From NCBI RefSeq assembly GCF_000184745.1, contig NC_014931.1:1426001-1490000 (forward strand): 64,000 bases of DNA, written 5' to 3'. The notes under the pieces were generated by a model. It made no database searches. It saw nothing but the letters and a program-made list of their open reading frames with translations, and was not told where the DNA came from. Source of the stretch: Variovorax paradoxus EPS (lineage in GTDB: Bacteria; Pseudomonadota; Gammaproteobacteria; Burkholderiales; Burkholderiaceae_C). This document shows positions 454 to 6,869 of this stretch, piece after piece. The stretch's first letter is position 1. Every line of letters begins with the position of its first letter. A program made the position numbers and the translations under genes.

Positions 454-888
454 TTAAGAAGGGCGCTTCAGGCTGTCGCGGATTTCGCGCAGCAAGGTAA
501 TGTCTTCTGGCGTTGCGGCCGGCGCAGCAGGTGCCGCCGCTTCGGTCTTTCGCAGCCTGTTGATCTGCTTGACCATCATGAAGATGATGAAGGCCAGGAT
601 CACGAAGTTCACCGCCACGGTGATGAAGCTGCCGTAGGCCAGCACCGGCACGCCGGCTTTCTTGAGATCGGCCAGCGTGTTCGCCACGCCGGCAGGTGCT
701 GTGCCGAGCACCACGTAGAGGTTCGAGAAATCGAGCTTGCCGAACACCACGCCCACCAGCGGCATGATGATGTCGGCAACCAGCGAGTCGACGATCTTGC
801 CGAACGCCGCGCCGATGATCACGCCGACCGCAAGGTCGATGACGTTGCCCTTGACGGCAAATTCCTTGAATTCACTGAGGATGCTCAT
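454..888 (-). CDS. mscL: Large-conductance mechanosensitive channel MscL
   Basis: Inner-membrane stretch-activated pore that releases solutes on hypo-osmotic shock. The 144-residue product has the usual MscL length and N-terminal signature ([20 protein letters not shown]), a first glycine-rich membrane helix, a periplasmic loop, a second helix ([19 protein letters not shown]) and a charged C-terminal helix ending KRPS. An Ala/Pro-rich stretch precedes the C-terminal helix, as is common in betaproteobacteria. It is transcribed convergently with pdxA and appears monocistronic. Confidence 0.97.
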
Positions 889-947
889 GATTCAAAAGGC
901 TGCTGGAGCTCTGCTGTTGAAGGAGTGCCGAGTATGCCCGCGATTGC

Positions 948-3449
948 TCACTTCTCCAGAGGGCGGAGGGCAACGCCGATGTGCGCCGGCGGCAACCCTT
1001 CACGGCTGCGCGCGGCAATTTGCCGGAAGCCGTCTTCCAGGTGCCGCACGAAGCGCGGCGTGTCGAAGTAGCCGCGGCGCGCGTCCTTCGCTTCCGCAAG
1101 CCGGCCGCGCAGCACGGCCAGTTCGTTCCGATGCGTGGCGTAGTGCACGGCCTTCTCGACGTATTCGTCGCGGGTCGTCGCCACCAGCTCCGGCAGGCCG
1201 ATGGCGCTCAGCAGGCTGCCCGCCATGCGCGACACCATCGTCGTGCCGGTGAGCGCAAGCAGCGGCACGCCGGCCCACAGCACGTCGTTCGCGGTGGCAC
1301 CGCTGCTGTAGGGAAAGGTGTCGATGAACAGGTCGGCCAGGCCGATGCGCGCCAGGTGCCTGTCGATCGGCATGCGCGGCGAAACGATGAGGCGTTCTGC
1401 CGGCAGGCCGGCCGCCTCCCACTGCGCACGCAGGTTCGTCTCGAAGCCGTTAGGCCCCTGCGCCAGCCAGAGCACCGCGTTCGGAATGCGCCGCACGATG
1501 CGCACCCAGGCCGCGAAAGTCTCCGGCTGGATCTTGAAGGACTGCGAGAAATTGCACAGCACGAACGCGTCCTCGGGCAGCCCGTGGTCGGCACGCGTGG
1601 CCTTCTGCGGATTGGTGGGACGCTGCGAGTCGATGACCTGGAAGGTCTCGGGCAGCCGAAGCAGCTTCTCGGAATAGCAGTCTTCCGTGCCCGGGGGCGA
1701 GAGGAAGTTGTCGGAGACCAGGTAGTCGTAGTTCGGTGTGCCGCTGGTGCCCATGTAGCCCAGCCACATGAGCTGCGCCGGCGCCGCGTGGTAGGCCATT
1801 ACCTGCGGCTTCGCACCGCGCGTGTCGCCCGAGAGGTCGATGAGGATGTCGACCTCGTCCTCGCGGATGCGCTCGGCCATCTGCTGGATCGACCGGCCTT
1901 GCATGTCCACGAAATTCTCGACGGATGAAGCGATGCGCGCGCGGGCAGGGTGCCCATCGTCGGGTCCGTACGAATACGCGAACACCTCGAAGTCCTTGCG
2001 GTCGTGCCGGGCGAACAGCTCGGCCGTGAGATGCGCGACCGGATGGTTGCGGAAGTCGAACGAGTAGTAGCCCACGCGAATGCGCGGCGACGTGCGCAGC
2101 GCGCCTGCATCGGCGAACGGCTGGATGCCCACGTTCCTGTCTGCCAGCGCGGCGGAGCGTTGCGTCCAGGCCATGAGGCGCCGGGCGTCGTCGTAGTTGG
2201 ACATCAGGATGAACGATGACACCGTCTGGTCGTTGCCCGGGGTGTCCAGCAGCGTGGCGATTTTTTCGCGCAGTTCGGGCACGCCGCGCCAGTCGGCGAT
2301 GTGGGCTTTTTCGCCCAGCATCCAGACCATGGCCGACATGAAGTTCGGGTCGTCGCGCAGGCACTGCTCGAACTGCGCAATGGCCGCCTCCGACTGGCCG
2401 GCCATCACGTAGGTCACCCCCAGGTTGCAGCGTGCGAGCACCTGTTTCGGATGCACTTCGAGTGCCTTCTTGAGCACCTCGATGGCGGTGTCGAAATGGC
2501 CGAGCCTGAAATTCACCGTTCCCAGGTTGTTCAGCAGCAGCTCGTGCTCCGGCAGGCTGTCGAGCGCGATCTTGTAGAGCTCGGCCGATTCCGCGAAGCG
2601 CATCGACACGCCCTCGAGCGCGCCGCAGACGCCATAGAGCGCCGCCACGCCTTCGGGATCGGACAGCGCCTTGTGGCGCTCCTCGGCCGGCCAGTTGCGC
2701 ATGGCGTGCTGCATGGGCGCGATGGCGTCCCCGGGGCGGCCGGCGCTGAGCAGCGCGCGCGAGAGCAGGTACGAGGCCTCCAGGTCGCGCGGGTCGGCCG
2801 CCGCCAGCTCGAGCGAGGCGAGGGCGCCTGTCCAATCCTTCTGGTGCGCGCGGATCTTGCCGATGTTCTTGTGGGCGGCGGTGTAGTTCGCGTCGAGCTT
2901 CAGGGCCTGCTGGAAGTGAAGGACGGCTTCGTCGAAGCGGTTCTGTTCCATGTCGATCGCGCCAGCGTTGTTCCATGCGGCGGGCGCTTGTGGTGCGAGT
3001 CGCGTGGCGTCGGCCGCGGCTTCGCGTGCCTGCCTGAACTTCTTTTGCTGGCGGTAGACCGCCGAAAGATTGATGTACGCCTCGGGGTAGTTCGCAAATG
3101 CCTTGATCGCGCGGCGCAGGTCCTGCTGCGCTTCGGCCAGCAGGTTCAGGTGCATGAAGATCGTTGCGCGGGTATTGAAATAGAAGTGATGCGGCGACTG
3201 CGCGATCGCCTGGTTCACATGGTTGAGCGCCAGCCGGGGCCGGCCTTGCCGGTACAGCGCTTCGCCCGTCAGGTGCAGAGCGTCGGCATCGCCAGGGAAT
3301 CGGGACAGCAGGGCCTGGTAGATCTGCAGCGCTTCTGCAAGGCGGCCCTGCCGATGCAGCGCGAGGCCTTGCTCCAGCAGCGCCGAGGCGTCGGCCTTGG
3401 CGTTTTCCTCGAAAGTGGCGGGTGCTGGCGCGATGGAAGAGGTGGTCAT
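948..3449 (-). CDS. TPR protein with GT41 (OGT/SPINDLY/HMW1C-type) glycosyltransferase domain
   Basis: An 833-residue protein. Roughly the first 400 residues are tandem TPR-like helices (for example YPEAYINLSAVYRQQKKF and HELLLNNLGTVNFRLGHFDT). Residues ~450-830 form a family-41 glycosyltransferase, seen in SFDFRNHPVAHLTAELFARH (the position of the catalytic-region His of OGT), LCNFSQSFKIQPETF (the nucleotide-sugar-binding Lys region) and FIDTFPYSSGATANDVLWAG. Known members transfer a sugar from a nucleotide donor to Ser/Thr, or in the HMW1C branch to Asn of N-X-S/T, usually in the cytoplasm. It lies 157 bases downstream of a repeat-rich adhesin on the same strand, so the adhesin is a plausible substrate. 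The domain assignment is firm; acceptor and linkage are inferred. Confidence 0.88.
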   Translation of the reverse strand: MTTSSIAPAPATFEENAKADASALLEQGLALHRQGRLAEALQIYQALLSRFPGDADALHLTGEALYRQGRPRLALNHVNQAIAQSPHHFYFNTRATIFMHLNLLAEAQQDLRRAIKAFANYPEAYINLSAVYRQQKKFRQAREAAADATRLAPQAPAAWNNAGAIDMEQNRFDEAVLHFQQALKLDANYTAAHKNIGKIRAHQKDWTGALASLELAAADPRDLEASYLLSRALLSAGRPGDAIAPMQHAMRNWPAEERHKALSDPEGVAALYGVCGALEGVSMRFAESAELYKIALDSLPEHELLLNNLGTVNFRLGHFDTAIEVLKKALEVHPKQVLARCNLGVTYVMAGQSEAAIAQFEQCLRDDPNFMSAMVWMLGEKAHIADWRGVPELREKIATLLDTPGNDQTVSSFILMSNYDDARRLMAWTQRSAALADRNVGIQPFADAGALRTSPRIRVGYYSFDFRNHPVAHLTAELFARHDRKDFEVFAYSYGPDDGHPARARIASSVENFVDMQGRSIQQMAERIREDEVDILIDLSGDTRGAKPQVMAYHAAPAQLMWLGYMGTSGTPNYDYLVSDNFLSPPGTEDCYSEKLLRLPETFQVIDSQRPTNPQKATRADHGLPEDAFVLCNFSQSFKIQPETFAAWVRIVRRIPNAVLWLAQGPNGFETNLRAQWEAAGLPAERLIVSPRMPIDRHLARIGLADLFIDTFPYSSGATANDVLWAGVPLLALTGTTMVSRMAGSLLSAIGLPELVATTRDEYVEKAVHYATHRNELAVLRGRLAEAKDARRGYFDTPRFVRHLEDGFRQIAARSREGLPPAHIGVALRPLEK

Positions 3450-3606
3450 GGGCTGTGTGAAGGACGGATCGCAGGGACACCAGGCACATCGGCCCCGACC
3501 CTTTGCGGCAGCAAAAAAGACCGGTCACCCAGTATAGGTGCCGGCCTTCGATTTCATCCTTGGCAAGCACCCCGGCGCGCTCGCGCCGCGGGTGCACGGG
3601 AGCGGA

Positions 3607-5580
3607 TTACCAGGACCAGGAGGCGCCGATGCCGCCGCCGACCTTGCCGTTGTTGCCGCTGCCGAAGTTCACCTTGATCTGGGCCGATTCGCTCAGGCGG
3701 AAGCTCGCAGCCGCGGCGACCGCCGAGCGGCCGTCGTAGGAGCCCACGCCCACGCCGATGCCGAAGCTCTTGCCCGCTTCGAGCGCCGGCACCGAGGCGG
3801 CAGCCAGGGCGATGGCCGCACCGGTGCTGCTGGTCTTGCGCATGTCCTGCACTTCGCTGCGAACCTGGTTCAACTGCGACATGTTGGCTGCGTCCGTCGG
3901 CAGGATGCCGGGCGCCACGTTCTGCACGCGCCCGTTGGCCACCATGCCGTTGCCGGCCGTGATCGAGCCGCCGGCCGTCACGTTGCCGGTGACGTTCACC
4001 GTGCCTGCGTTCAAGGTGGTGACGTTGCCGGTCACCGCGTTGATCGTCGTGATGTTGCCGGTCTGCGTGTTCAGCACCGTGATGTTGCCGTTGGCTGCCG
4101 TCAGCGTCTGGAAGTTGCCGGTGTTGGCATTCACGGTGGTGGCATTCACCGTGCTCGCATTGACCGTGCTGGCATTCACCGTGGTCGCAGCCACCGTGTT
4201 GGCGGTCAGCGCGTTGATGGTTGCGCTGGCTGCCGACAGGTTGGTGGTGCTGACGTTGGTGGCGCTGATCGTATTGATCGTGGCACGGCTTGCCGTCAGG
4301 TTGGTGGTGCTGACGTCGGTGGCACTCATCGTATTGATGGTGCCGCTGTTGGCTGTCAGGTTCGTGGTGCTGACGTCGGTGGCACTCAGCGTATTGATCG
4401 TGCCGCTGTTGGCTGTCAGGTTCGTGGTGCTGACGTCGGTGGCACTCAGCGTATTGATCGTGCCGCTGTTGGCCGTCAGGTTCGTGGTGCTGACGTCGGT
4501 GGCACTCAGCGTATTGATCGTGCCGCTGTTGGCCGTCAGGTTCGTGGTGCTGACGTCGGTGGCACTGAGCGTATTGATCGTGCCGCTGTTGGCCGTCAGG
4601 TTCGTGGTGCTGACGTCGGTGGCACTCAGCGTATTGATGGTGCCGCTGTTGGCTGTCAGGTTCGTGGTGCTGACGTCGGTGGCACTCAGCGTATTGATGG
4701 TGCCGCTGTTGGCTGTCAGGTTCGTGGTGCTGACGTCGGTGGCACTCATCGTATTGATGGTGCCGCTGTTGGCCGTCAGGTTCGTGGTGCTGACGTCGGT
4801 GGCACTGAGCGTATTGATCGTGCCGCTGTTGGCCGTCAGGTTCGTGGTGCTGACGTCGGTGGCACTGAGCGTATTGATCGTGCCGCTGTTGGCCGTCAGG
4901 TTCGTGCTGCTGACGTCGGTGGCACTCAGCGTATTGATGGTGCCGCTGTTGGCCGTCAGGTCGGTGGTGCTGACGTTGGTGGCGCTCAACGTGTTGACAG
5001 TGCCGTTGGACGCCGTGAGGTTGCTCGTGCTGACGTTGGTGGACGTGAGCGACGAGATGCTGCCGTTGCCCGCCGTGATGTTCGCCGTGTTGATGTTGGT
5101 GGCATCGACGTTCGTGCCGAGGATGTTCGTGGCGGTCACGCCGGTGGCGAGGATGTTGGTCGACGTCAGCGACTGGATCGTGCCGTTGCCCGACGACAGG
5201 TTGCCGGTGGTCACGTTGTTTGCGCTCAGCGTGCCGAGCGTTCCGTCGGCGGCGGAAATGCTGGCCGAACTGATGCTGGTTGCGGTCACGGTGCCGGCGC
5301 TGACGCTCGATGAGGTCAGGCTGGTTGCCGTCAGGTTGGGCGTGGAAATGCCGTCGGCGGACGTCAGAACGCCGTTGTTGCCGCTCGTGATGTTGAGGAT
5401 GCCCAGGCCGGGAGGATCGACGACGACGTTGACGCCGCCGACGGCCACTTGCGCGTACGCAACCGGCAACGTCATCACGTACCCCGCACCTACCAACACA
5501 GAGGCCAGAACACGGCTGATCCCCGCGGGGCGAACGCTGCGGGAACCGGGGTTGGAAGCGGAGCGCTTGGGTGTAGTCAT
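3607..5580 (-). CDS. YadA-like trimeric autotransporter adhesin with 20-residue repeats
   Basis: A 657-residue predicted surface protein. The start is the ATG at 5580, preceded by AAGGAAA. The N-terminus is a long basic, Ser/Arg-rich signal sequence with a hydrophobic core (VLASVLVGAGYVMTLPVAYA) and likely cleavage after AYA. The passenger is low complexity: about ten near-identical 20-residue repeats of the type NLTANSGTINTLSATDVSTT, flanked by degenerate copies and TVNAS/GNVT runs. The last ~110 residues (GRVQNVAPGILPTDAANMSQ, then a helix, then alternating strands ending GGIGASWSW) match the YadA anchor that trimerises in the outer membrane. N-X-S/T sites are very abundant. The GT41 gene downstream may glycosylate it. 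Confidence 0.85.
   Translation of the reverse strand: MTTPKRSASNPGSRSVRPAGISRVLASVLVGAGYVMTLPVAYAQVAVGGVNVVVDPPGLGILNITSGNNGVLTSADGISTPNLTATSLTSSSVSAGTVTATSISSASISAADGTLGTLSANNVTTGNLSSGNGTIQSLTSTNILATGVTATNILGTNVDATNINTANITAGNGSISSLTSTNVSTSNLTASNGTVNTLSATNVSTTDLTANSGTINTLSATDVSSTNLTANSGTINTLSATDVSTTNLTANSGTINTLSATDVSTTNLTANSGTINTMSATDVSTTNLTANSGTINTLSATDVSTTNLTANSGTINTLSATDVSTTNLTANSGTINTLSATDVSTTNLTANSGTINTLSATDVSTTNLTANSGTINTLSATDVSTTNLTANSGTINTLSATDVSTTNLTANSGTINTMSATDVSTTNLTASRATINTISATNVSTTNLSAASATINALTANTVAATTVNASTVNASTVNATTVNANTGNFQTLTAANGNITVLNTQTGNITTINAVTGNVTTLNAGTVNVTGNVTAGGSITAGNGMVANGRVQNVAPGILPTDAANMSQLNQVRSEVQDMRKTSSTGAAIALAAASVPALEAGKSFGIGVGVGSYDGRSAVAAAASFRLSESAQIKVNFGSGNNGKVGGGIGASWSW
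4201..5040. repeat. 60-bp tandem repeats within the adhesin gene
   Basis: Fourteen consecutive 60-base units, each coding 20 residues. The ten from 4321 to 4920 differ from one another at only a few bases; the outer ones are progressively degenerate. The unit contains GTATTGAT and TGCCGCTGTTGG and keeps the reading frame. Because 60 is a multiple of three and the unit lacks stops, long spurious open frames arise in other frames. Such arrays change copy number by slippage or recombination and are prone to assembly collapse. Confidence 0.95.
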
Positions 5581-6077
5581 CTGACTGTTTCCTTGGTGGA
5601 TGGGCGACAACTTCGCGAGCCCGGACTGCCCGGGTTAGCCTCGAAGCGAGGTCGGGTTTCATTGAGTTACCCGATGCAACCAATGCTAGGAATCGTGGCG
5701 CCGATGAACATCACCGGGATCGGTAGTTCTTGGCCTATGCCTTCGACTGCCGCGCCGTCCGTGGCGCGAGTGAAAGCCTGCTGAAAGCCAATGCACATGC
5801 GGGGTCGGCCGAACCGCATGGACGGGATGCCGCATCGAACTGCCGGTTTTCCATGCGTTCCGAAGTGGCGCGATGCTACGTAACACGCACGGTCACAAGT
5901 GCGTAACAACAGGGCCAAAACAAGCCCTGGACGCGCCGTTGGAAGCGCATTGACGCCCCTCGTTTCTGGCTAATTTCCCAATGAAATCAAGGTGCTGGTC
6001 GCCTTGCCGCACTTGACTCGGCCGGTGTGCTTTCGTGCGGGCATCGTTCCTGCGGTATCTGAAACGAAAGTCAACAT
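5581..6077. other. Non-coding region between adhesin and LuxR gene
   Basis: No convincing gene was found. On the minus strand, the untranslated leader of the adhesin holds two small hairpins: arms CCTCG/CGAGG at 5639-5651 and CCCGG/CCGGG at 5620-5634, about 40 bases ahead of the start codon. They do not match a riboswitch class I recognise. The rest (about 5735-6077) must hold the divergent promoters, but I could not assign -35/-10 boxes with confidence. Confidence 0.5.
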
Positions 6078-6869
6078 TTGGACGCTACCTTGCGTAGCAA
6101 GAGGGACGTGCGCGTGGCCATCAATCTTTCCAGTCATCCTTTGAGAACGGCGCCGATGTCGTCGGCGTCGCAGCTCTCGTACGTGAGCACTTTTCACGGT
6201 GCACTGATCGTCGAGGAAGACCCCGACGTGGCCGCCCGGCTGCGCCGCATACTGGGTAACCTCGCGCCCGGCCGCCGCGTCGTGGTCGCATCCACGCGCG
6301 CCGAGGCGTGCAACCTCCTGGCCTCGCTGCCCTACGACCTCCTGCTGGTCGGCATGTGCCTGCCGGGCAGTGACGGCGTCTCGCTGATCCGCCATGTGCG
6401 CGAGACCTATCGGCACATCGAGACCATCGCCATGTCGCCGTGCGACGACCATGAACTGGTGAACGCCGCGATCTCCGCGGGCGCCATCGGCTACCTGCTG
6501 ACGGAGGCGGACGACGCCGAACTTTCTTTCCTGCTGCGCTCGATCGAGCGCGGCGGTGCGCCGATGGACTCGCGCGTCGCGCGGCGCATCCTCGGGCTGA
6601 TCGCCGCATCGGCGAAGACGCGGACGATCGAGCCGATCCGGACCGTGCCTCTTGCCGAGCCGCCGTCGGCACCCGCCCGGCTCTCGCCGCGCGAGCTCAA
6701 GGTGCTGCGGCTGATTGCGCAGGGATGGAGCAACCGGCAGATCGCGGAGGCGGTCTACCTGTCGGTCAACACGATCGAGTTCCACGCCAAGAGCATCTAT
6801 CGGAAGCTCGCGGTCAAGTCGCGGACCCAGGCGGTCCACGAGGCGATGCAGCACGGGCTTCTGAACTGA
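6078..6869 (+). CDS. LuxR-family regulator with degenerate receiver domain
   Basis: A cytoplasmic DNA-binding regulator of up to 263 residues. The N-terminal half has the receiver fold (GALIVEEDPDVAARLRR, then YDLLLVGMCLPGSDG), but the residue aligned with the phosphoacceptor Asp is Gly (residue 92) and the conserved Lys after GYLL is Thr (residue 142), so phosphorylation is unlikely. The C-terminus is a LuxR-type HTH (LSPRELKVLRLIAQGWSNRQ, IAEAVYLSVNTIEFH). The start is uncertain: this TTG is the longest choice, GTG at 6114 has GAGGG eight bases upstream, and ATG at 6156 is also possible. No kinase is adjacent. Targets are unknown. Confidence 0.85.
   Translation: MDATLRSKRDVRVAINLSSHPLRTAPMSSASQLSYVSTFHGALIVEEDPDVAARLRRILGNLAPGRRVVVASTRAEACNLLASLPYDLLLVGMCLPGSDGVSLIRHVRETYRHIETIAMSPCDDHELVNAAISAGAIGYLLTEADDAELSFLLRSIERGGAPMDSRVARRILGLIAASAKTRTIEPIRTVPLAEPPSAPARLSPRELKVLRLIAQGWSNRQIAEAVYLSVNTIEFHAKSIYRKLAVKSRTQAVHEAMQHGLLN

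Follow-up and report, generated by a model that had tools for sequence, protein, structure and literature searches.

An OGT-type GT41 glycosyltransferase encoded beside a trimeric autotransporter adhesin in Variovorax: a probable enzyme-substrate pair

A trimeric autotransporter adhesin (TAA) gene of Variovorax paradoxus EPS lies upstream of a gene for a TPR-bearing glycosyltransferase of family GT41, on the same strand and with 157 bases between them, and this order is conserved in relatives. We consider it probable that the two products form a dedicated cytoplasmic enzyme-substrate pair, in which the sugar is likelier to be O-linked than N-linked. Here, "the window" denotes the whole analysed stretch of 64,000 nucleotides (NC_014931.1, positions 1,426,001 to 1,490,000). 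Both reading frames are open and arranged head to tail, as the preliminary description had reported. Given that the 6.55-Mb genome encodes four YadA anchors (about a 1.2% chance per gene of having one within 10 kb), that PF13844 matches only one gene in the whole genome, and that the arrangement recurs in relatives, the adjacency exceeds chance expectation.

The two genes are separated by a hairpin followed by a T-run (Table 1), with a fold z of −4.8, which is present in all 21 loci examined. Its loop sequence, CCTATACTG, occurs once in the window (0.01 expected). The hairpin is a putative terminator of the adhesin gene and/or promoter of the GT41 gene, and because it is terminator-like, a single transcript for both genes is not assured. 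The flanking genes are presumably an MscL-like channel gene on one side and, on the other, a response regulator-like gene and petABC. The mscL-like gene directly follows the GT41 gene in 22/22 Variovorax genomes with an ortholog of the latter and is found in 97 of 101 genomes overall; it is not thought to be a member of the pair. The order of the response regulator gene and petABC is identical in four other loci (L126, L153, L222, and L283).

Table 1. Features of the adhesin-GT41 locus and its neighbours (positions in the window)
Feature	Position	Strand	Remarks
MscL-like channel gene (presumed)	454..888	-	Neighbour, about 60 bases past the GT41 gene
OGT-type GT41 glycosyltransferase with N-terminal TPR domain	948..3449	-	Open frame, 833 aa; Pfam
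GT41 catalytic domain	1017..2084	-	Residues 456-811
TPR region of the GT41 protein	2310..3401	-	About residues 17-380; many TPR families (Pfam)
Hairpin and T-run between the two genes	3513..3549	-	Loop contains TATACT, resembling a -10 box
TAA gene	3607..5580	-	Open frame; 657 aa from ATG
YadA membrane anchor of the adhesin	3610..3789	-	Residues 598-657; genome 1429610-1429789
Tandem 60-bp units coding a 20-residue repeat	4261..4980 (approximate ends)	-	Mostly one N-L-T each
LuxR-type response regulator-like gene (presumed)	6078..6869	+	Neighbour on the far side of the adhesin gene, followed by cytochrome bc1 genes petABC

Orthologs of the GT41 gene are present in 22 of the 101 Variovorax genomes (missing in 79), and orthologs of the adhesin gene in 19 (missing in 82). 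In 19/19 of these genomes the adhesin gene lies beside the GT41 gene on the same strand, and in none of them (0/19) does it occur without the enzyme. The pair was likewise found in all 14 named Variovorax loci for which the upstream region was available, a set that overlaps the 101 genomes. A dedicated pairing had been proposed in the preliminary description, with conserved adjacency in related genomes as its check and a lack of co-occurrence as its refutation; the co-occurrence seen here, together with the same gene order in two other genera, does not refute the proposal but supports it. That the pair is kept together suggests that the enzyme decorates the adhesin. Because the pair occupies one site within Variovorax, with mscL after the GT41 gene in every case, the counts within this genus are not independent.

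One genome (G109) carries an open, full-length GT41 gene and its hairpin, with no adhesin gene at the locus, and seems to have lost the adhesin alone; its enzyme may therefore have other targets, or the loss may be recent. In two further Variovorax genomes the GT41 gene is reduced to its final 50 or 32 codons; these genomes, with no match to the adhesin C-terminus, seem to have lost both genes. These two scars were found among 15 mscL loci from pair-less genomes. In the other 13, mscL and pdxA lie together and no match to the response regulator gene or petABC was detected in the fetched stretch, so a simple insertion of the pair between mscL and petA was not borne out. In Variovorax sp. OK212 (L042), a 1599-aa frame that looked like a fusion of adhesin and GT41 was discarded, since it reflects a wrong adhesin reading frame running into the GT41 gene.

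Beyond Variovorax, a GT41 gene directly follows a TAA gene in two other genera, with GT41 proteins 50% and 41% identical to that of the window. The partner adhesins, both cut by contig ends, have Pfam YadA anchors and C-termini 32-33% identical to that of the window's adhesin, and one (G170) also has a YadA_stalk match (Pfam). Neither of the two fetched stretches showed any of the outer neighbours known from the window. The same two genera also contain species in which the enzyme is lacking (3 of 4 and 2 of 3). Metagenomes contributed further homologs, with 46-63% identity. When the adhesin was used as a query, only one protein was matched, over 13% of the adhesin, and its relatives outside Variovorax are therefore known from synteny. 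In the class sample, 1 of 369 passed the 1e-150 threshold for GT41, namely the window's own genome; in the order sample, 1e-140 was passed by 45 of 399, with 1402 bits for the window's protein and at most 572 for the other 44.

The GT41 proteins of pair-type loci form one clade (support, 0.998) in a tree that includes one gene twice (L145 and L220). Wherever the context of its members was seen, a TAA gene lies directly upstream, with the exception of G109. TAA-GT41 proximity occurs at three separate places in the tree, which does not distinguish separate gains from losses. Near other GT41 genes, a TAA gene was found at 4 of 31 other Variovorax loci (31 of 32 rows, with G022:C1103 left out), 1 of 26 other loci of the order, and 0 of 17 others; flanks were short in 6, 5, and 7 of these, respectively, and the counts cover GT41s of 1e-60 or stronger. 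Anchors were also sought with a local model built from 20 seeds, which included L215 and L216 (both Pfam-confirmed). The P values for TAA proximity, like those for paired versus unpaired passengers, are too small because the rows are kin. On Pseudomonas and Cereibacter plasmids, GT41 genes adjoin genes for ALTTAQ-repeat proteins. Type I secretion genes are annotated nearby in 5 of 7 plasmid contexts examined (out of 139 matching records), but not near the GT41 gene of A. brasilense Sp 7, and the L256 record showed two genes only. A wider reading, which we consider doubtful, would have each of several OGT-type clades accompany a different repeat protein, a TAA here and an ALTTAQ-repeat protein on the plasmids.

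The preliminary description had named both HMW1C-type and OGT-type enzymes as models for the pair. The likeness to HMW1C holds as an arrangement, in that an enzyme is encoded beside an adhesin, but not as family membership, which we reject. The catalytic domain scores 268 bits against human OGT, 240 against XcOGT, 165 against TtOGT, and 158 against SPINDLY, versus 51 bits against HMW1C-like enzymes; the NCBIfam NGT model NF049992 yields 48.2 bits, far below its cut-off of 1000 (40.8 bits for the G272 homolog); and the protein contains TPRs. By these comparisons the catalytic domain, which also matches PF13844 (301 bits; cut-off, 25; Pfam), is OGT-type and not HMW1C-type. H469 and K639, as counted from alignments to human OGT chains 7yea/7yeh, align with H568 and K852 of those chains and are taken by us to be the active-site His and Lys. 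Together with T719 and D722, they are invariant in 17/17 aligned relatives. By analogy with OGT and FlmG, the TPR region is proposed to be the substrate-binding part.

The Pfam families matching the adhesin at E <= 1 are YadA_anchor (43.3 bits; cut-off, 22.7), which ends at the stop, and Decapeptide, a weak match; at the same threshold no coiled YadA stalk or head repeats and no ESPR were found. Residues 1-44 look, on a by-eye reading, like a Sec-like export signal. Eleven N-L-T sites stand in exact 20-residue register (residues 227-427), in agreement with the preliminary description, which had also called the adhesin sequon-rich. In absolute density the latter claim stands (4.95 sequons per 100 residues of a 667-residue frame, whereas the median for 19 unpaired TAAs is 0.99), but relative to composition it does not: 33 sequons are observed versus 27.7 ± 4.0 in shuffled sequences (P = 0.11), and 18 versus 18.9 in the repeat part (residues 171-455). 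We therefore rejected the sequon richness of this adhesin as stand-alone evidence. Removal of exact repeat copies leaves 24 sequons versus 16.5 expected (P = 0.013).

Paired adhesins as a group are richer in sequons than unpaired ones. Their passengers have 5.8 versus 1.0 sequons per 100 aa and 11.5% versus 4.5% N, in a comparison with 17 paired Variovorax proteins (L042 and L156 have the same figures and are likely one strain twice) and 19 unpaired TAAs from 20 hand-picked regions in five pair-holding genomes (L197 gave no row). All 16 paired adhesins in the shuffle test, from three genera and with differing repeat units, lie above the shuffle mean, and 14 of the 16 have a significant excess (P < 0.05), also after removal of exact repeat copies. 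This test omits L042 as well as L034 and L045, whose start was not recognised; runs of N or contig ends excluded L033, L035, L046, and L047 from both sequon analyses, and the adhesins of L215 and L216 are partial.

This excess speaks for N-linked transfer, in which the OGT-type enzyme would modify Asn in N-X-S/T of the adhesin. Such transfer would still make the two proteins enzyme and substrate, with the main alternative linkage, and we regard it as rather unlikely. Also in its favour, the 19 unpaired TAAs have a median sequon z of −1.9, the two best-scoring non-orthologous relatives of the adhesin (partial frames) have z of 0.4 and −1.2, N is uncoupled from S/T at +2 in three such relatives (odds ratio, 1.05), and TAAs near other GT41 clades (L095, L096, L128, L129, and a 135-aa piece in L220) range from −0.4 to 1.2. 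However, enrichment in Variovorax is no weaker for the mirror motif [ST]-x-N than for the sequon (odds ratios, 2.24 versus 1.84), and S/T follows a residue plus V/L/I in similar fractions of cases for N (0.74), S (0.70), and D (0.67), with only 0.43 for T. The five-residue periodicity that these patterns point to can explain much of the sequon excess. Moreover, N in sequons is no more conserved than other N (0.94 versus 0.95) across the C-terminal 190 residues of 19 orthologs, and the catalytic domain is far from those of NGTs. Within GT41, Asn transfer at N-X-S/T is not known beyond the HMW1C side. A bolder version, in which OGT-type TPR-GT41s are a third, independent cytoplasmic class with secreted repeat proteins as dedicated targets, and use of N-X-S/T arose in the Variovorax clade by convergence with HMW1C, strikes us as doubtful.

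The enzyme might instead modify other proteins, such as flagellin or other adhesins, with the neighbouring adhesin a bystander or one target among several. The GT41 gene of G109, which stands without an adhesin, would fit this explanation, as would the ability of HMW1C-type enzymes to act on proteins encoded elsewhere, as described in PMC5303269 and PMC8151025, and the identification of flagellins as FlmG substrates (PMC7591256). It is nonetheless unlikely, though worth some weight, because the gene order is common to three genera, two of them without the outer neighbours, and no adhesin ortholog occurs without the enzyme among the 101 genomes. Inheritance or movement of two unrelated genes as one block would agree with the single site in Variovorax, with the absence of the genes from most genomes, and with the two scars among the 79 GT41-less genomes, which fit a single deletion of both genes. 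Persistence of the order at 41-50% GT41 identity without the outer neighbours, and TAA-GT41 proximity at three tree places, whether by gains or losses, make such hitch-hiking very unlikely. Finally, a GT41 protein that serves the adhesin as a TPR chaperone without sugar transfer, a role that was also proposed for HMW1C (PMC3983070), is highly improbable in view of the four invariant residues, among them the presumed active-site His and Lys.

Under the preferred enzyme-substrate reading, the GT41 enzyme would stay in the cytoplasm, where its TPR superhelix would capture the adhesin passenger in unfolded form. Single sugars would then be placed by the enzyme's OGT-like GT-B domain on the N/T/S-rich repeats, at many of their residues. 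The donor would be a nucleotide sugar, most likely UDP-GlcNAc or UDP-hexose. An OGT-type catalytic domain makes Ser/Thr the likelier acceptor. The sugar-bearing adhesin would then pass Sec, and its own YadA anchor would insert and thread it. That the adhesin is a substrate and is modified in the cytoplasm is our inference, as are the sugar, the way it is linked, and possible consequences for adhesion or stability. Few substrates are known for this class of bacterial OGT homologs, and the neighbouring repeat protein, if our reading is true, would be a testable one. How the TPR superhelix chooses acceptors is a long-standing question for human OGT, and with just two genes, of soil-bacterial origin and easy to handle in E. 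coli, it could be tested directly on a simple repeated peptide.

Judged by titles and abstract starts, the open-licence literature yielded no study that links an OGT-type enzyme to a trimeric adhesin. XcOGT, TtOGT, and human OGT, the best solved relatives, share the TPR and GT41 catalytic domains and the conserved His and Lys, but here the GT41 clade has a TAA gene directly upstream (G109 excepted); none of the three is known as a partner of an adhesin gene. FlmG of Caulobacter, likened here by description, also combines TPR and glycosyltransferase domains and, as proposed for our enzyme, O-links sugars in the cytoplasm to a protein secreted later, and its TPR part binds the substrate, a precedent for TPR binding of a secreted protein; it differs in its substrate (flagellin) and donor (pseudaminic acid), and is called GT-B, with "GT41" absent from the text (PMC7591256). 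HMW1C, EtpC, and NGT, enzymes with T5bSS neighbours, share with our enzyme family GT41 and, on the preferred reading, a cytoplasmic location and a type V secreted adhesin as substrate; their genes sometimes adjoin that of the substrate, and their acceptor sites are N-X-S/T (PMC3983070 and PMC8151025). HMW1C has an AAD fold (PMC3983070), whereas TPRs and an OGT-type catalytic domain are found here, and the known TAA cases are encoded apart from the enzyme (PMC5303269), whereas ours is adjacent. The BAHT heptosyltransferases, again compared by description, provide dedicated cytoplasmic O-glycosylation of autotransporters, as is proposed here, and are sometimes co-transcribed with their target, but they are described as unrelated to NGTs and their named example, TibA, is a classical autotransporter (PMC8151025). 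That 2021 review gives two mechanisms for cytoplasmic glycosylation of autotransporters, HMW1C-like NGTs and BAHTs (PMC8151025); a trimeric adhesin with an OGT-type enzyme of its own, if confirmed, would add a third route.

The trimeric autotransporter adhesin (TAA) carries a YadA anchor at its C-terminal end and is separated by 157 bases from the TPR-GT41 gene (see table). No head or stalk domains were found in it by Pfam at E ≤ 1, and its one further match at that level, to Decapeptide, is weak. The source genome is complete (6.55 Mb), has near relatives that carry the name Variovorax, and contains one gene matching PF13844 and four YadA anchors. Open frames of 591 to 709 aa overlap the adhesin on the + strand (antisense) and in another - frame, out of frame with it, and at one compared locus (L042) such an out-of-frame adhesin frame continues into GT41. 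Frames of these kinds are prone to mis-annotation.

Across 101 Variovorax genomes, the GT41 ortholog (at least 81% identity) is present in 22 and the adhesin ortholog (at least 83% over the last 150 residues; matches below ortholog level do not exceed 56%) in 19. The preliminary description had paired the two genes on location and composition, and co-occurrence in relatives, run as a check, bears this out: by coordinates, all 19 adhesin orthologs adjoin GT41 on the same strand (Fisher P = 9e−18 for co-occurrence, kinship ignored). Because MscL is encoded directly after GT41 in 22 of 22 genomes, the pair represents one inherited site in Variovorax. Three genomes have GT41 without an adhesin ortholog, namely, G010 and G116, both at contig ends, and G109. 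In G109, the response regulator is separated from GT41 by DNA that corresponds first to the region upstream of the adhesin and next to the hairpin that precedes GT41; the adhesin seems genuinely to have been lost there. In G048 and G098, which lack the pair, the final 50 and 32 GT41 codons remain as a scar, and neither site shows a match to the C-terminus of the adhesin. The flanks of the G048 scar match window positions 889-1083 and 5846-6100, as a single deletion taking both genes would leave them. In three other Variovorax loci (L223 to L225), the mscL-side DNA reads by eye as polysaccharide export and nucleotide-sugar enzyme genes, and the site may therefore be one where surface genes vary.

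Upstream of GT41, a hairpin whose loop is CCTATACTG is present in 21 of the 21 loci examined, G109 included, and it lies between the two genes where the adhesin is kept; the search string was CTATACTG, and the loop thus belongs to the definition of a hit. By eye, a T-rich run follows at all examined loci but L154, and the stem folds at −21.8 kcal/mol in the window (z = −4.8; z = −2.6 in G109). The hairpin looks like an intrinsic terminator with TATACT, which resembles the −10 consensus, in its loop; a promoter scan found no site. We infer that the adhesin transcript terminates at it and the GT41 transcript begins there, and its retention in G109 without the adhesin favors a role for GT41. A loop kept this constantly is unusual in a plain terminator and may reflect a promoter inside a terminator.

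Beyond the genus, 7 of 399 genomes in a family sample passed E 1e−110, 2 of them Variovorax. The GT41 proteins of G272 (50%) and G170 (41%) match that of the window over nearly their full length, and each is directly preceded on the same strand by a YadA-anchored gene (cut by the contig end) whose C-terminus is 32 to 33% identical to that of the window adhesin. No anchor was seen for the remaining three non-Variovorax GT41s of the family (33 to 38%). None of pdxA, mscL, response regulator, petABC, and sspA was found in the DNA examined around the pair in G272 or G170, and the G272 pair precedes what we take to be ribosomal-protein and fusA genes. At E 1e−120, the gene was missing from three of four other species in one of these two genera and from two of three in the other. 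A tree built from 114 catalytic domains, with one gene represented twice, and rooted at its midpoint places the GT41s of Variovorax, G272, G170, and metagenomes in one clade (support 0.998). Outside it, TAAs are found near GT41 at low frequency (4/31, 1/26, and 0/17 loci; 18 of the 74 have less than 3 kb on one side) and at two further places in the tree, at which gains and losses are not separable. One comprises four Variovorax loci (L096, L128, L129, and L220) with a second, divergent arrangement in which a TAA accompanies a different OGT-type GT41; the TAAs of the first three have no sequon (N-X-S/T) excess, and in L220 the anchor sits in a separate 135-aa frame. The other, L095 (G031, from another family of the order), carries a YadA adhesin that has head and stalk domains; a GT41 frame lies on the same strand about 2.7 kb away, with a transposase-like gene between them by eye.

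Locations of the adhesin, GT41, and related features (window positions, or locus coordinates where an L number is given)
Feature	Location	Strand	Details
Adhesin	3607-5580	-	657 residues; first in transcription order
TPR + GT41 domain protein	948-3449	-	833 residues; second in transcription order
Hairpin, loop CCTATACTG	3513-3549		Between adhesin and GT41
Open frames overlapping adhesin	3538-5683	+ and -	
GT41 remnants beside mscL	L222 5241-5388; L283 12364-12459		Two pair-less Variovorax genomes; last 50 and 32 codons
TAA + different GT41, divergent arrangement	L128 5696-9585; L129 6587-10476; L096 5036-12868; L220 6290-16415		Four Variovorax genomes
YadA adhesin + GT41 frame	L095 1186-8460	One strand	
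GT41 + ALTTAQ-repeat protein	L257 2959-9080; L258 2397-9107; L256 1-9083		
Repeat frame + GT41	L275 7402-16909		
Type I secretion and TPR/O-GlcNAc-transferase-like genes	L292 3290-8080		Pseudoroseomonas plasmid

The preliminary description had also allowed for an HMW1C-type enzyme, which the scores of the catalytic domain alone contradict (human OGT, 268 bits; XcOGT, 240; TtOGT, 165; SPINDLY, 158; HMW1C-like N-glycosyltransferase [NGT], 51). The NCBIfam NGT model scores 48 against a cut-off of 1000. The G272 protein ranks alike (OGT, 244; XcOGT, 217; NGT, at most 39). By sequence comparison, the window GT41 protein is OGT-type. Its H469 and K639, which we take to be catalytic, correspond to H568 and K852 in chains 7yea/7yeh (numbers counted from alignments) and do not vary across the 17 aligned rows.

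The window adhesin, noted initially as rich in sequons, has 33 of them versus 27.7 ± 4.0 in shuffles, a number that its composition accounts for. An excess is seen across paired adhesins: z is positive in all 16 measured (P < 0.05 in 14). The excess survives removal of exact repeat copies in 14 of the 16, and repeat units vary between species. Sequons number 5.8 per 100 residues in 17 paired Variovorax adhesins versus 1.0 in 19 unpaired TAAs (median z = −1.9) from five pair-holding genomes, with one strain seemingly present twice in the comparison; the two groups show no difference in S+T content (P = 0.36). The excess could be read as a sign of N-linked glycosylation, but the mirror motif is as enriched as the sequon in Variovorax (odds ratios of 2.24 for [ST] two before N and 1.84 for two after, each 9-residue context counted once), and the offsets +2 and −3 are coupled in the G272 and G170 adhesins, as a five-residue period requires. 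In Variovorax, moreover, S and D followed by V/L/I precede S/T nearly as often as N does (0.70 and 0.67 versus 0.74; T, 0.43), and over the last 190 residues of the 19 orthologs, N in sequons is conserved no better than other N (0.94 versus 0.95). Hence the repeat class goes with the enzyme, and N-linkage, or any linkage, is not readable from the repeats. We consider it likely that GT41 and the adhesin are enzyme and substrate, with O-linked modification favored over N-linked.

OGT-type GT41 genes also lie beside ALTTAQ-repeat (PF20080) proteins in each of three scanned loci on Pseudomonas and Cereibacter plasmids; L257 and L258 have type I secretion genes close by. By eye, a similar 2510-aa repeat frame precedes GT41 in L275, from an order relative (G768). 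L292 has, in one consecutive series, genes for type I secretion, for a UDP-glucuronate decarboxylase, and for two TPR/O-GlcNAc-transferase-like proteins, the last two adjoining each other, which hints at a donor sugar.

We propose that the adhesin would be modified in the cytoplasm ahead of export, with the TPR part choosing the substrate. The former step would resemble HMW1C and autotransporter heptosyltransferase (BAHT) systems (PMC8151025, PMC3983070), and the latter would resemble the Caulobacter glycosyltransferase FlmG, whose TPR part binds flagellin (PMC7591256). A 2021 review names two mechanisms for cytoplasmic glycosylation of autotransporters, NGTs and BAHTs (PMC8151025), and a search of open-licence literature found no paper that links a TAA to an OGT-type enzyme. 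Trimeric adhesins are known as targets of GT41 enzymes in Kingella and Aggregatibacter, where the enzymes are described as HMW1C-type and unlinked (PMC5303269). The arrangement found here is thus a known one with another GT41 subfamily as the enzyme: in contrast to those cases, the enzyme is OGT-type and its gene adjoins that of the adhesin.
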